DNA of 64,000 bases. Source: Alphaproteobacteria bacterium. GTDB lineage: Bacteria; Pseudomonadota; Alphaproteobacteria; Sphingomonadales; Sphingomonadaceae. This document shows positions 38,372-42,749 of this stretch, piece by piece. The first letter of the stretch is position 1. Each line of letters starts with the position of its first letter. Made by a program: the position numbers and the translations under genes. The notes under the pieces are model-generated. The model had not been told where the DNA came from. It was given only the letters and a program-made list of their open reading frames with translations, and did not search any database. Where the stretch lies: assembly GCA_018970445.1 (NCBI GenBank), contig JAGWWF010000001.1:1-64000 (forward strand), in the 5' to 3' direction.

Positions 38372-39141
38372 TGATGATGCAGGGCAAGCGCGCGGTGGTG
38401 ACCGGGGCGACCAGCGGCATTGGCCTGGCCATTGCGAAGGCGCTGGCCGACGCCGGGGCGCGGGTGATGATCAACGGCTTTGGCGATGCGGCGCAGATTG
38501 CGGCAGCGCGCGGCGAGGCCGGCGACGCGCTGTATCACGGGGCAGACATGAGCAAGCCTGCCGAGATCGCAGCGATGATGGCGGCGGCGCAGGATCAGCT
38601 GGGCGGGGTGGACATCTTGGTCAACAACGCCGGCATCCAGTTTGTCTCGCCGGTGGAGGATTTCCCGGCCGAGAAATGGGATGCGATATTGGCGATCAAT
38701 CTGTCATCCGCCTTCCACACCACCCGCCTTGCCGTGCCGGGCATGAAGACGGCGGGCTGGGGGCGGATCATCAACACCGCGTCTGCGCACAGCCTGGTCG
38801 CCTCGCCGTTCAAATCGGCCTATGTCGCGGCCAAGCACGGCATTGCCGGCTTTACCAAGGCGGTGGCGCTGGAGGTGGCGACCGATGGCATCACCGCCAA
38901 CTGCATCTCGCCCGGCTATGTGTGGACGCCGCTAGTGGAAAAGCAGATCCCCGACACGATGGCAGCGCGCGGCCTGAGCCGCGAACAGGTGATCGAGGAT
39001 GTGCTGTTGAAGGCGCAGCCCACCCGCCAGTTCGTGACGGTGGAGCAGGTGGCCGCCACCGCCCTCTTCCTGTGCAGCGATGCCGCCAGCCAGATCACCG
39101 GGGCCAATATCAGCATGGATGGCGGCTGGACGGCGGCGTGA
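38371..39141 (+). CDS. 3-hydroxybutyrate dehydrogenase
   Basis: A 256-residue short-chain dehydrogenase. It has the NAD-binding GATSGIG (residues 13-19 region), NNAGIQFVSPVEDFP, the catalytic Ser in ASAHSLVASPFKS and YVAAKHG for Tyr/Lys. GFTKAVALEVATDGITANCI and QPTRQFVTVEQVA are characteristic of D-3-hydroxybutyrate dehydrogenases. It interconverts 3-hydroxybutyrate and acetoacetate. Three consecutive ATGs start the gene, the first overlapping the thiolase stop. Confidence 0.9.
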   Translation: MMMQGKRAVVTGATSGIGLAIAKALADAGARVMINGFGDAAQIAAARGEAGDALYHGADMSKPAEIAAMMAAAQDQLGGVDILVNNAGIQFVSPVEDFPAEKWDAILAINLSSAFHTTRLAVPGMKTAGWGRIINTASAHSLVASPFKSAYVAAKHGIAGFTKAVALEVATDGITANCISPGYVWTPLVEKQIPDTMAARGLSREQVIEDVLLKAQPTRQFVTVEQVAATALFLCSDAASQITGANISMDGGWTAA

Positions 39142-39178
39142 ATCGGGGCGTGACATGATTCCATCCCCGTTTTCCCCG

Positions 39179-39187
39179 TTATCCACA
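39179..39187 (+). promoter_or_regulatory. Perfect DnaA-box 9-mer
   Basis: TTATCCACA matches the consensus R-type DnaA box exactly. It lies 38 bp after the dehydrogenase stop, beside a short AT-richer tract (AATATTTCATTTTGACG) and upstream of the structured RNA region. A single box is not evidence for an origin; it may be a titration or regulatory site. Confidence 0.45.
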
Positions 39188-39249
39188 GGGCGCATGGCCA
39201 ATATTTCATTTTGACGACTCACCCATATGATGAGAGCATCAACTTGTGA

Positions 39250-39930
39250 CCGGGAATTGACGGCGGCAGAAATGCCAAAGGAAAAGAAGCGGTTACGGCC
39301 AGTTTCTGGAGACAATGCCGCTTAACCGGTGGGAATTGAAACCGGAAAAGGGTCGGGCTGGAAGGCCAGCCTGGGTGAACGGGGCGACAGCGGGCAACCG
39401 CCAGCGCGCCACCAGGACGGAGCACCAGTCCACCGGCAGTCGCCGGGTGGCAGGAAGCGGCCAGAGGGGCAACCCGAAGGCCGGCAGCAGCCAGCCGGAC
39501 GATACCGGAACCGGCAGCAACGCCAGCCGGGCACGTGGAACACACCGGTGAATGCCTGTGTGAAACCAGTGCCGGGTGGGAGCAGCCGCCGGAAGGGCCG
39601 CCAGGCCCGCACGCACCAGCAGCCGCGCCGGCGCACGCCAGGGCGGTGACCCCCAAGGGTGACGCAGCCGGCAACGGCGAGGCCACCACGGCAAGGAACC
39701 CGCAAGGGAACGGGCCACAGGGCGAAGGCAGGGCGGACGGAGCCGAACAGTCCGGCAACGGTGGCGAGATGGCTCCGCAGAGCCATCCCTCCACCGGATG
39801 CGAAAGTGCCGCGACCTCGCGGAAGGCCAGCCGCCGCAGCTCCAGCTGACGAAGCCGTGAGCGCAGGCGCCGACCGAAGCGAATGGCACGACACAGTGGG
39901 GGCTGATGGCAACATCAGCTCCCATTTTGC
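39250..39930 (+). ncRNA. Candidate large structured non-coding RNA (undescribed)
   Basis: This stretch of about 680 bp has no convincing protein frame. On the + strand it folds locally throughout. Hairpins seen directly: 39326-39345, 39356-39371 (GGCTGG/CCAGCC), 39390-39401, 39433-39446, 39459-39482 (GGCC, a symmetric AGA/GAA loop with tandem G-A pairs, then GGG), 39541-39562, 39646-39663, 39667-39678, 39699-39708, 39752-39761 or alternatively 39759-39796 (two helices of 6 and 7 bp), 39809-39822, and a final stem at 39896-39925. Six loops are GCAA tetraloops (39394, 39469, 39671, 39702, 39755, 39909), out of eight GCAA words in the region. The reverse strand would give TTGC loops, so the RNA reads rightward. 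The 5' end is uncertain, about 39220-39260. Family unknown to me. Confidence 0.55.
39896..39928 (+). terminator. Terminator-like long stem ending the structured RNA
   Basis: GTGGGGGCTGATG (39896-39908) pairs with CATCAGCTCCCAT (39913-39925) around a GCAA loop, with two G-T wobbles, followed by TTTT. It reads rightward and ends just before the stop of the convergent POT transporter gene. It could serve both transcripts, though no T-run follows on the minus strand. Confidence 0.65.
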
Positions 39931-39933
39931 CGT

Positions 39934-41283
39934 TCAAAGCCGCAGCAGCACCGCCAGCCGGCCGCGCACCAGCCACATGATCGCCGCGCCGCCCAGCGGA
40001 AACGCGGCGTGCAACAGCCAGAAATCCGCCGCCGCCATGGTTCCATAATAGCGCCCCAGCCAACCCGACACGGTGCTGCCCAGGAACACCGCAAACTGCA
40101 CGATGCCCAGCATCACCCCGGTCACGGCCGCCGGTGCCGTGCGCGAAAACAGCGCGTTCACGGTGGGCACCAGATACAGCCAGCCGGTGTTGAGAATGAG
40201 GTGGAACATCACCACCCACAGGATCGGCGTTTGCCCCGCGCCCAGCACCAGGCCACTGCCCAGCGCCAGCCAGATGAAGGCGGCGCCCATCAGCGCCAGG
40301 CCGATGCCGATCTTGCCCAGCTCCCCAGGTGCCCGGCCGCGCCGCGCCTGTGCTCGCCACAGCGCCAGCACCGGCGGAACCGCCAATATGGGCGCGAGAC
40401 TGTCGAACGCCTGCAACCATGTGACCGGCACCTCAAACCCCAGCACGAGGCGATCGAGATGATCTCGCCCCCACAGGGCATAGACATTCCACACCTGGCT
40501 TTGTGCCAGCCAGAACAGGCTGGTCAGCCCCATCACCGCCAGCAGCGCCGCGATGGTGCGGCCATCGCCGGCCTGCAGGCGGGCGCTGCGCCGGGATTCG
40601 GGCGGCGTGTCGGCCGGCATCAGGCCATTGCCGGCCAGCAGCGTGATGGCGGCCAGCGCCATGCAGCCGCTGGCCGCGGCAAAGCCCCATTGCCAGTTCA
40701 CCAATTCGCCCAGCGCGCCGATCAGTAGCGGGCCAAGAAAGGCCCCGGTGTTGAGCCCGGCCGCCAGAATCGAAAAGGCAGCGTCGCGGCGGCCATCATC
40801 ACGCGGGTAAAGATGCCCGGTCTGGGCATTCAGGTTGCAGCGCAGCGCGCCAGCCCCCAGCGCGCTGACCAGCAGGCCGGGCAGGAAGCTGGCAGGCAGG
40901 ATGATCATCACCATGCCGGCGGTGGCCAGCACCGCGCCGATGATGCAGGCACGGCGCGGCCCCCACACCCGGTCGCCCAGCCAGCCACCCAGCAGCGGGG
41001 TGAGAAAGAAGAGACCAAGATAAAGCCCCATTGTCTGGGTCGCGAGACCTTGCAGGCTCATGCGGCCGAACAGGTTTTCCAGAAGGCTGCGCCAGGCGGC
41101 AAAGCCACCGACGCTGGCGAGTTGTTCTGGCGTGAACAGCGCATTGGCCATGTACAGGATCAGCAGCGCCTGTACGCCATACACGCCAGCGGCCTGCAAG
41201 GCCTCGGCAACAGTGACGATGGTCAGCCCTGCCGGGTGACCGCCAAGGGCCGGTTTGGCCGGACTTTCGCCGTCTGCCCGCAC
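39934..41283 (-). CDS. POT/PTR2 family proton-dependent peptide transporter
   Basis: A 449-residue, 12-14-helix major-facilitator transporter of the POT family, importing di- and tripeptides with protons. Hallmarks are GGHPAGLTIVTVAEALQAAG at the first helix (usually a longer ExxER here, so the proton-coupling motif is not canonical), GGWLGDRVWGPRRA, and NAQTGHLYPRDDGRRDAAFS with LAAGLNTGAFLGPL. The GTG start at 41283 places the first helix correctly and follows the lipoprotein stop by 4 bp. Upstream in-frame codons look like non-coding overlap. Confidence 0.85.
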   Translation of the reverse strand: MRADGESPAKPALGGHPAGLTIVTVAEALQAAGVYGVQALLILYMANALFTPEQLASVGGFAAWRSLLENLFGRMSLQGLATQTMGLYLGLFFLTPLLGGWLGDRVWGPRRACIIGAVLATAGMVMIILPASFLPGLLVSALGAGALRCNLNAQTGHLYPRDDGRRDAAFSILAAGLNTGAFLGPLLIGALGELVNWQWGFAAASGCMALAAITLLAGNGLMPADTPPESRRSARLQAGDGRTIAALLAVMGLTSLFWLAQSQVWNVYALWGRDHLDRLVLGFEVPVTWLQAFDSLAPILAVPPVLALWRAQARRGRAPGELGKIGIGLALMGAAFIWLALGSGLVLGAGQTPILWVVMFHLILNTGWLYLVPTVNALFSRTAPAAVTGVMLGIVQFAVFLGSTVSGWLGRYYGTMAAADFWLLHAAFPLGGAAIMWLVRGRLAVLLRL

Positions 41284-41287
41284 CGGC

Positions 41288-41521
41288 CTAGCGCGGGTCC
41301 CGTTCGGCGTTGCGCCGTTCCTTCTCGGCCTTCCGCGCGTCCTTGCGGGCCTGTTCTTCCTGTTTGCGGATGGCGCGGCCGCGCTTGATGTCGGCCTCTT
41401 CCTGGCTTTCGGTGGCGGTATCATAGATCACTTCGCCGGCCTTGATCGGCGCGGTGATCACGGCCTTGGCTACGCTGCAACCGGCAAGCAGGACAGGAAG
41501 GATGAGGAGGAGCGGGCGCAT
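41288..41521 (-). CDS. Small lipoprotein
   Basis: A 77-residue predicted lipoprotein. MRPLLLILPVLLAGCSV has the lipobox LAGC at residues 12-15, followed by a short hydrophobic stretch and a strongly charged C-terminal helix (KQEEQARKDARKAEKERRNA). The function is unknown. It sits in a leftward unit between the photolyase-like gene and the POT transporter, separated from each by only 4-7 bp. Confidence 0.72.
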   Translation of the reverse strand: MRPLLLILPVLLAGCSVAKAVITAPIKAGEVIYDTATESQEEADIKRGRAIRKQEEQARKDARKAEKERRNAERDPR

Positions 41522-41528
41522 CACCCTT

Positions 41529-42749
41529 TCATGCCAGAGCCGCCGGGGGCAACGCCAGCAATTTCGGTATGACGGCCTTGAACGGAAAAAACCCCTTGCT
41601 GGCCCGCGGCCAGGCCACATCGTCCCACGCCCGGCGCAACCGCACCAGCGCCACGCCATCGGCCGCCAGCGCTGGGGCGAGCGCATCGAGCCGGTCCTTC
41701 ACCGGGCCAACCGGGGCATCGGCGGTGATGATCTGCGCCAGGCGGTGACGGGCCGCCCAGTCGCGCATCGCCTCGAAGCCAAAGGTTGCGTCCACCCGTT
41801 CGGGGGCCAGCCCCAGCCGGGTCGCGGCACGGTCCAGCCCATCGGCCAGCATCGCCATGGCCACCCGCTGTTTCAGCGGGGCCGGGGTGCCGCCGATATC
41901 GGGTGTAGCTGCCACAGCAACGATCCGGCCAGGCAGCGACAATGTCTCAAGACACGTGTCTTCGGTGGTGACGAACAGGCCGGTGCGCAGATCAGGATCA
42001 GCCACCATCGCTGGCGCGGGTGGGATCGGCGGGGGAATCATGTCGGCCGGCCACGGCGGCGCTTCGCGGGCCAGCGGGGTCTCAACCCGGAATCGTCCGC
42101 CCGACAGGTCGCGGATCAAATCGGCGCGGGCAAGATAGGTCTTGCCCGCCGTTTGCAGCCCCACCACCCAGCGCCAGCCCAGCGTGTTGCTGGCCGGGCA
42201 GGCATCGAGCAGATGGCGATAGAAGAAGGCCGCGCCCAGTTGCCAGGGCAGGCGCAGGGTAAAGCACCAGATGCTGGCAAAGCTCATCCGCACGTGATTG
42301 TGCAGCCAGCCGGTTTCGGCCAGTTCATGAACCCAGGCGTCGAAGCAGTCGATTCCGGTCTGTCCGGCCAGGGCCTGGGTGTAGCGGCGCTGCCACTTGC
42401 CATCATCGGCCAGCATCGCCTCCATGCGCACGACGTCGGCCTGCCAGCGGGTCCAGATCTCCGGTCGCTGCTGCAACCAGCCGACCCAGTAGGTGCGCCA
42501 GCACACCTCCTGGACGAACTTCTCCGCTCCGCCAAAGCCATGCGCGGCAACCGCTGCCGCGACCACGTCCGCTTCGCTCACCAATCTGCGGCGGATGGCA
42601 GGAGACAGCAGCGAGGTGGTCGCCGTCCCGCCTGGTCCTGCATCGTGATTGCGCCGCACGGCATAAGCGCGGCCGGCCAGCGGAATGAAATCGTGCAGGC
42701 GCGCCAGAGCGTCGGCGCGGGAGAGGGGAAAGCGCGTTTCAGGCAGCAT
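41529..42749 (-). CDS. Photolyase/cryptochrome-like FAD protein with unusual domain order
   Basis: A 406-residue flavoprotein. The N-terminal two thirds matches the photolyase FAD-binding domain: FVQEVCWRTYWVGWLQ, ETGWLHNHVRMSFAS, and NTLGWRWVVGLQTAGKTYLA, the FAD-cradle signature. In ordinary photolyases an alpha/beta antenna domain comes first. Here about 150 residues with Rossmann-like strands (LPGRIVAVAATPDI, RLAQIITADAPVGPV, GVALVRLRRAWD) follow instead. So the domains appear swapped, or the C-terminal part is a different alpha/beta domain. Repair activity is not proven. Confidence 0.8.
   Translation of the reverse strand: MLPETRFPLSRADALARLHDFIPLAGRAYAVRRNHDAGPGGTATTSLLSPAIRRRLVSEADVVAAAVAAHGFGGAEKFVQEVCWRTYWVGWLQQRPEIWTRWQADVVRMEAMLADDGKWQRRYTQALAGQTGIDCFDAWVHELAETGWLHNHVRMSFASIWCFTLRLPWQLGAAFFYRHLLDACPASNTLGWRWVVGLQTAGKTYLARADLIRDLSGGRFRVETPLAREAPPWPADMIPPPIPPAPAMVADPDLRTGLFVTTEDTCLETLSLPGRIVAVAATPDIGGTPAPLKQRVAMAMLADGLDRAATRLGLAPERVDATFGFEAMRDWAARHRLAQIITADAPVGPVKDRLDALAPALAADGVALVRLRRAWDDVAWPRASKGFFPFKAVIPKLLALPPAALA

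Follow-up and report, generated by a model that had tools for sequence, protein, structure and literature searches.

Positions 39246-39930 on the + strand of the window, by which we mean the whole 64,000-nucleotide stretch of sphingomonad DNA analyzed here, appear to encode a non-coding RNA of a new family in the Sphingomonadaceae, one that would have its own transcription, would be controlled by DnaA and GcrA/CcrM, and would act in trans as a folded scaffold. We put the probability of this reading as a whole at roughly 0.6. That the region 39142-39933 holds a genuine structured non-coding RNA is close to certain. By computation there is homology within the genus, compensatory pairing, no coding signal, a set of conserved promoter signals, and a genome encoding both GcrA and a RAMA-domain protein. 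Large structured non-coding RNAs are a known kind; for this family, its hosts and the coupling to its promoter we found no entry in Rfam and no description in the literature searched.

The RNA gene and its relatives in the genus

On its left the region has genes for a thiolase and a short-chain dehydrogenase, of which the latter ends at 39141; on its right is a POT/MFS transporter gene on the - strand (39934-41424). Downstream of the transporter gene, positions 41529-42749 (- strand) encode a protein with the FAD-binding domain known from DNA photolyases (PF03441). The RNA is present in a single copy in its own genome, and its T content is 8.2%, against 16.2% in the window.

A sequence-only reading of this region had proposed a large structured RNA of about 0.65-0.7 kb, transcribed rightward from near 39200-39250; the putative product, about 685 nt on the + strand with a likely start at about 39246, agrees with it on each point. 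That reading had also counted six of eight GCAA words capped by stems of at least 3 bp and had expected well under one such loop by chance. Our recount of the + strand of 39142-39933 gives the same six of eight (loop starts 39394, 39469, 39671, 39702, 39755 and 39909), and 1000 dinucleotide shuffles gave a mean of 0.32 and a maximum of 3, none reaching six. Taking all GNRA words together, 10 of 48 are capped on the + strand, while the same number of shuffles averaged 1.6 with a maximum of 8 and none reached 10. The - strand has no capped loop in either class (0/1 GCAA, 0/14 GNRA). The + strand has a minimum free energy z-score of -6.8 and the - strand one of -4.8 (20 shuffles per strand), so both strands fold beyond their shuffles and this score by itself does not choose between them.

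The RNA can be divided into four parts on the + strand, with predicted ends. A 5' domain (39246-39296) consists of helix P1, pairing 39246-39252 with 39290-39296, around a GAAA-capped hairpin at 39265-39276. The variable middle (39297-39799) is U-poor and rich in tetraloop-capped hairpins, including the GCAA loops at 39394, 39469, 39671, 39702 and 39755, and its length differs strongly among relatives. A conserved 3' domain (39800-39894) is closed by GTGCC (39806-39810) with GGCAC (39885-39889), a helix so nearly invariant in the alignment described below that covariation by itself says little for it. Last comes a terminator-like hairpin (39895-39928), which has the GCAA loop at 39909 and precedes TTTT; it has two-sided changes in 7 of its 14 pairs, and similar hairpins end the RNAs of other genera. 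The sequence-only reading had the region end in a long stem with a T-run: the stem stands, as a conserved hairpin, whereas the T-run comes to four residues and a generic terminator scan did not flag the hairpin.

A DNA search of 60 relatives gave a match in 24 genomes, 22 of them from the window's own genus. A search of 24 genomes of that genus likewise gave 22 with a match; the locus itself is present in 21 of the 24, because the match in G019 is a stretch of 37 bases only. A promoter model found its match in G019 at an oriC-type locus and had no match in G006 (460 contigs) or G023 (410 contigs). Across the 21 loci the RNA is 327-745 nt long, and its ends are conserved.

We aligned the 12 long members of these 21 loci (alignment A1). 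RNAalifold predicted 111 pairs, 42 of them with two-sided compensatory changes; in the structure that we counted, of 101 pairs, the 5' pairs gave way to P1 with its hairpin, and certain short helices were omitted. With this structure 93.4% of cells are paired, 39 pairs have two-sided changes (96 cells in all), and covariation scores 0.270, compared with 85.1%, 19.9 +/- 2.5 pairs, 31.1 cells and 0.126 in shuffled alignments (n=500, none of which reaches the observed values). Sliding the structure by 1-3 columns leaves 28-41% of cells paired and 8-17 two-sided pairs, a comparison that favors the counted structure partly because it was derived from A1 itself. For the 5' domain we used a separate alignment of 18 sequences (A5), made up of 16 genus members together with L036 and L039. 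There the closing pair of the GAAA loop occurs as A-U, G-C, U-A and C-G, and nine cells have a two-sided change, compared with 2.0 in shuffles; only 2 of the 11 pairs have such a change, a number that 71 of 500 shuffles also attain.

Open reading frames of more than 100 amino acids are present inside 39142-39933, and the earlier judgment that the region has no credible gene holds all the same, as substitutions follow no reading frame. Between the window and three close members they fall on the three codon positions as 49/51/49, 58/56/53 and 57/60/58, and of 32 indels 27 have a length not divisible by three. On the even codon-position substitution and the out-of-frame indels we rejected a protein-coding gene. 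The sequence-only reading had named homologues and covarying helices as what should support it, and codon-like substitution as what should count against it: relatives do exist in the Sphingomonadaceae, the helices covary above both shuffled and slid controls, and no reading frame is apparent. Its structured RNA is thus supported; what it missed was how the promoter is built, that the RNA occurs outside the genus, and how strongly the middle varies in length.

Promoter architecture and a probable link to replication

Upstream of the RNA, tandem 9-mers resembling DnaA boxes (39159-39189, + strand) end in a full box, TTATCCACA (39179-39187), plus GG. They are kept in a 61-sequence promoter alignment and in the loci not selected for GANTC, and would be expected to bind DnaA. 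A conserved block contains a putative -35 element, TTGACG (39211-39216), which overlaps GACTC (39216-39220), a GANTC site of the CcrM/GcrA type, 30 nt before the likely start. The alignment further suggests a weak -10 element, GAGCAT (39234-39239), 17 nt after the -35; all three are on the + strand. A generic sigma-70 scan found no consensus promoter in the locus.

The promoter alignment (A2) comprises 61 of 72 distinct promoters. Its elements come in the order TATCCCCG / ATATCCCCG / TTATCCACAGG, then GACTC after a gap of about 27 nt, then a weak -10 some 13 nt beyond it, and finally the presumed start. GACTC is invariant in A2, in part as a result of retrieving some loci with a pattern that contains it. 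In the 21 genus loci, which were found by similarity over the whole region, a GANTC lies 27 nt after TTATCCACAGG in every case. For other genera, the pattern TATCCNCGNTATCCACAGG was found at 24 places in 23 of 199 family genomes, its reversed control at none, and by eye 20 of these 24 loci have a common layout of DnaA-box-like 9-mers, a CGCTTGG / GCGACTC-type block, a -10-like block and a U-poor body. We removed L037, L038, L044 and L045, which we judged by eye (U content, start) not to be RNA-type, and also L040-L042, which repeat genus loci; this leaves 17 other-genus loci not selected for GANTC. The site is 27-28 nt after TTATCCACAGG in 14 of these; in L033 and L051 it is at 18 nt, nearer by about one helical turn, and L049 is an RNA-type locus with no GANTC. 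L035 has GAATC in place of GACTC, so that GANTC is retained. The whole 64-kb window contains 70 GANTC sites, so that any given 6-nt interval would hold one by chance in under 1% of cases.

Several loci differ in their surroundings. In L034, L048, L067, L109, L116 and L120, GACTC is followed by GAGTC, forming an inverted GANTC repeat across the -35/-10 spacer. In L061-L065, from genus g117, TTATCCACAGG stands beside a dense GANTC cluster, and the downstream gene is rnhB-like by eye. L037, L044 and L082-L086 are other promoters, in which TTATCCACAGG occurs with CCACCACAATCC- or CCACATCCTGTGCC-like blocks; we guess by eye that they are ribonucleotide reductase promoters.

The promoter model gave a second match in the RNA's own genome, on contig C22, at a locus with hemE, DnaA boxes, a Kinase-PPPase gene and Maf, which by alphaproteobacterial synteny we take to be oriC. 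TTATCCACAGG with its adjoining CCCCG is also present there. We considered and rejected the RNA locus itself as the chromosome origin, as the oriC-type locus is on C22 and the RNA on C20. Two loci of the oriC type, L164 (G000:C22:165200-168200) and L171 (from G019), carry the RNA-promoter box CCCCGTTATCCACAGG upstream of a Kinase-PPPase gene, and in L171 GACTC also follows that box.

Both the GcrA family (PF07750) and the RAMA domain (PF18755), which we take to be a marker of CcrM, were found in all seven genomes searched, including the RNA's own, which by these two families has GcrA and a CcrM-type methyltransferase. Among 14 control genomes PF07750 was found in Caulobacter and Sulfolobus, and PF18755 in Caulobacter only. 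As in promoters of the GcrA/CcrM type, GANTC falls between the -35 and the -10 as we have placed them. In Caulobacter, one study groups the transcription start sites that have GANTC between -10 and -35 into a cell-cycle-regulated cluster; ctrA P1 has its GANTC at -28/-29, and podJ P2 has GANTC at -24 and a DnaA motif at -82 (PMC4287350). The DnaA-box array and the GANTC inside the -35/-10 interval suggest that DnaA and GcrA/CcrM probably control this promoter, and we consider replication or cell-cycle control of it likely. Synthesis would then come under both DnaA and GcrA/CcrM methylation, and would shift when DnaA is active and when a passing replication fork leaves the GANTC hemimethylated.

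Occurrence and divergence beyond the genus

A second pattern had a match in 33 of 296 genomes of the order, some of these matches being other promoters. A scan of named genomes yielded 40 contigs, 39 titled as sphingomonads and one just as Proteobacteria bacterium; those titles include Sphingomonas, Sphingosinicella, Hephaestia, Glacieibacterium and others. In 34 of the 40 contigs there is a terminator-like hairpin, often GGGGGCTGGCAGCAATGCCGGCCCCC followed by ATTT, and the RNAs are 254-672 nt long.

The bodies diverge strongly between genera. Twelve other-genus loci beginning with GTGATCGG form an independent alignment (A3), and 30 of 102 pairs there have two-sided changes, compared with 17.3 +/- 2.4 in shuffles (0/300 reach the observed number) and 10-20 when the structure is slid. 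In 49 other-genus RNAs, capped GNRA or UNCG loops average 4.9, compared with 1.3 in shuffles, and 23 of the 49 lie above the highest value among their own 50 shuffles. This set is without L035 and L049, which the extraction rule missed, without the genus-like L036, L039 and L114, and without genus members; L057, L058, L060-L065 and L082-L086, being false or other promoters, were left out both of it and of the single-sequence folds. The 5' helix is visible in many of those folds of other-genus RNAs, at a modest excess (mean score 10.47 compared with 9.73 +/- 0.30, and a maximum of 10.38, in 200 shuffles). A covariance model of the 5' domain (R2) found, besides two genus members, one of 56 other-genus sources below an E value of 0.01, and thus does not serve as a family-wide structural model. 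Given this result and the modest helix excess, the case for homology of the bodies across genera is built more on promoter, terminator and layout than on the sequence of the bodies.

The promoter model had a match in 23 of 147 genomes of the order, some weak or limited to DnaA boxes, and three matches in 20 further genomes, one of them at oriC; for several other genera of the family, one genome each was searched and gave no match. The sparseness of these matches suggests that the RNA is patchy in its distribution, or under another promoter in those organisms. Gene neighbors also differ between genera, as judged from a crude choice of open reading frames and from genes mostly named by eye, and for that reason were dropped as a hint to function. 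A phage- or plasmid-borne RNA was likewise rejected: the promoter pattern had no match in viral contigs, and the RNA had none in plasmids or phages. In two genera a sub-threshold match to RF01867, the Caulobacter sRNA CC2171 (gathering cut-off 75 bits), lies about 1 kb upstream of the RNA, at L043:2489-2652 (- strand, 51 bits) and at L055:413-586 (+ strand, 38.5 bits).

Known families, rival readings and significance

Rfam 15 had no match in the window at its gathering cut-offs, in keeping with the earlier failure to recognize a class. At E values up to 10 there were eight matches in 38900-40200, and at E values up to 1 six in 20 related loci, all below gathering. Among the matches listed in a search of the open-license PubMed Central literature, we recognized no description of the RNA. 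Diverged forms of three RNAs, structured as this RNA is and of similar or smaller size, were considered and rejected, as each has its match elsewhere in the genome: 6S RNA (RF00013) on contig C31 (39.4 bits, below the cut-off of 46.4), alpha tmRNA (RF01849) on C25 (215 bits), and RNase P RNA (RF00010) on C40 (248 bits).

GOLLD, ROOL and OLE are included in Rfam, and their known hosts differ from the sphingomonads. The RNA described here, which lacks an Rfam match, resembles them in its size, its heavy structure and the lack of a protein product, and they are reported to form homo-oligomeric particles (PMC12286853). Like the ornate RNAs it combines large size with covarying structure, seen in A1 and A3, and shows no coding signal. 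The raiA-motif RNA, or ModT, is similarly a conserved structured non-coding RNA acting without a protein product, but it is reported from Bacillota and others (PMC11706538), and the present RNA has no Rfam match. CcnA of Caulobacter crescentus is likewise an alphaproteobacterial non-coding RNA with replication-linked promoter signals; it is located at the origin and presumably activated by CtrA (PMC8959179). Our RNA, in contrast, is away from the oriC-type locus (C20 versus C22), and the TTAA of a CtrA box is absent from 39151-39260, read by eye.

Conserved ends and folds, a freely growing middle and neighbors that differ between genera make a scaffold acting in trans the most likely role. The RNA would then work as a stable folded scaffold, in an RNA-protein or an RNA-only particle. 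A different role, which we regard as possible but doubtful, is that of a long base-pairing sRNA whose folds protect it while short antisense segments are exposed, such as GGGAATTGA, which occurs twice near the 5' end. Both of these motifs, or close variants, are kept in most A1 members, and cell-cycle non-coding RNAs do exist in alphaproteobacteria, CcnA having a proposed pairing with ctrA and gcrA (PMC8959179); much of the conservation, however, falls in paired stretches, and a folded RNA of 250-750 nt is large for an antisense sRNA. On balance we give the trans-acting folded scaffold, as opposed to an antisense sRNA, about even odds. A ribozyme or self-processing RNA would account for the complex fold and many GNRA loops, but Rfam, introns and ribozymes included, provides no match, and we think it improbable. 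Least probable of all, to the point of being negligible, is an overlooked gene or a GC-rich spacer with chance folds: GC-rich DNA readily gives open reading frames of the length seen, but the substitution and indel patterns above do not fit a gene, and covariation and capped loops exceed their controls.

The RNA might also be real but free of cell-cycle control, GACTC being part of an unusual sigma-factor site and the 9-mers serving another factor. GACTC does lie within the promoter, adjoining an equally conserved CGCTTGG block, and its block is in register with the putative -35. Against this, the GAATC of L035 is still a GANTC, the site in L033 and L051 is 9-10 nt nearer the DnaA box, extra GANTC sites flank GACTC in several loci, and TTATCCACAGG with the adjoining CCCCG recurs at the oriC-type locus; we therefore consider this explanation unlikely, and retain control by DnaA and GcrA/CcrM. 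A more specific version of that control, in which DnaA and a hemimethylated GANTC would fire an S-phase burst of a stable, possibly self-assembling RNA particle acting on the nucleoid, replication or RNA polymerase, is offered tentatively, as a speculation; it would bring a class of large structured RNAs directly under the DnaA-GcrA-CcrM clock.

To our knowledge, bacteria have only a few large structured RNAs that yield no protein, and most of them are unexplained. The present RNA occurs repeatedly in sphingomonads that can be cultured, with compact natural versions of about 250-400 nt beside expanded ones, and its promoter suggests when it might be made, so that the role of such RNAs becomes testable. 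If our reading of the promoter is true, a structured RNA would join the replication-linked gene set of the alphaproteobacteria.
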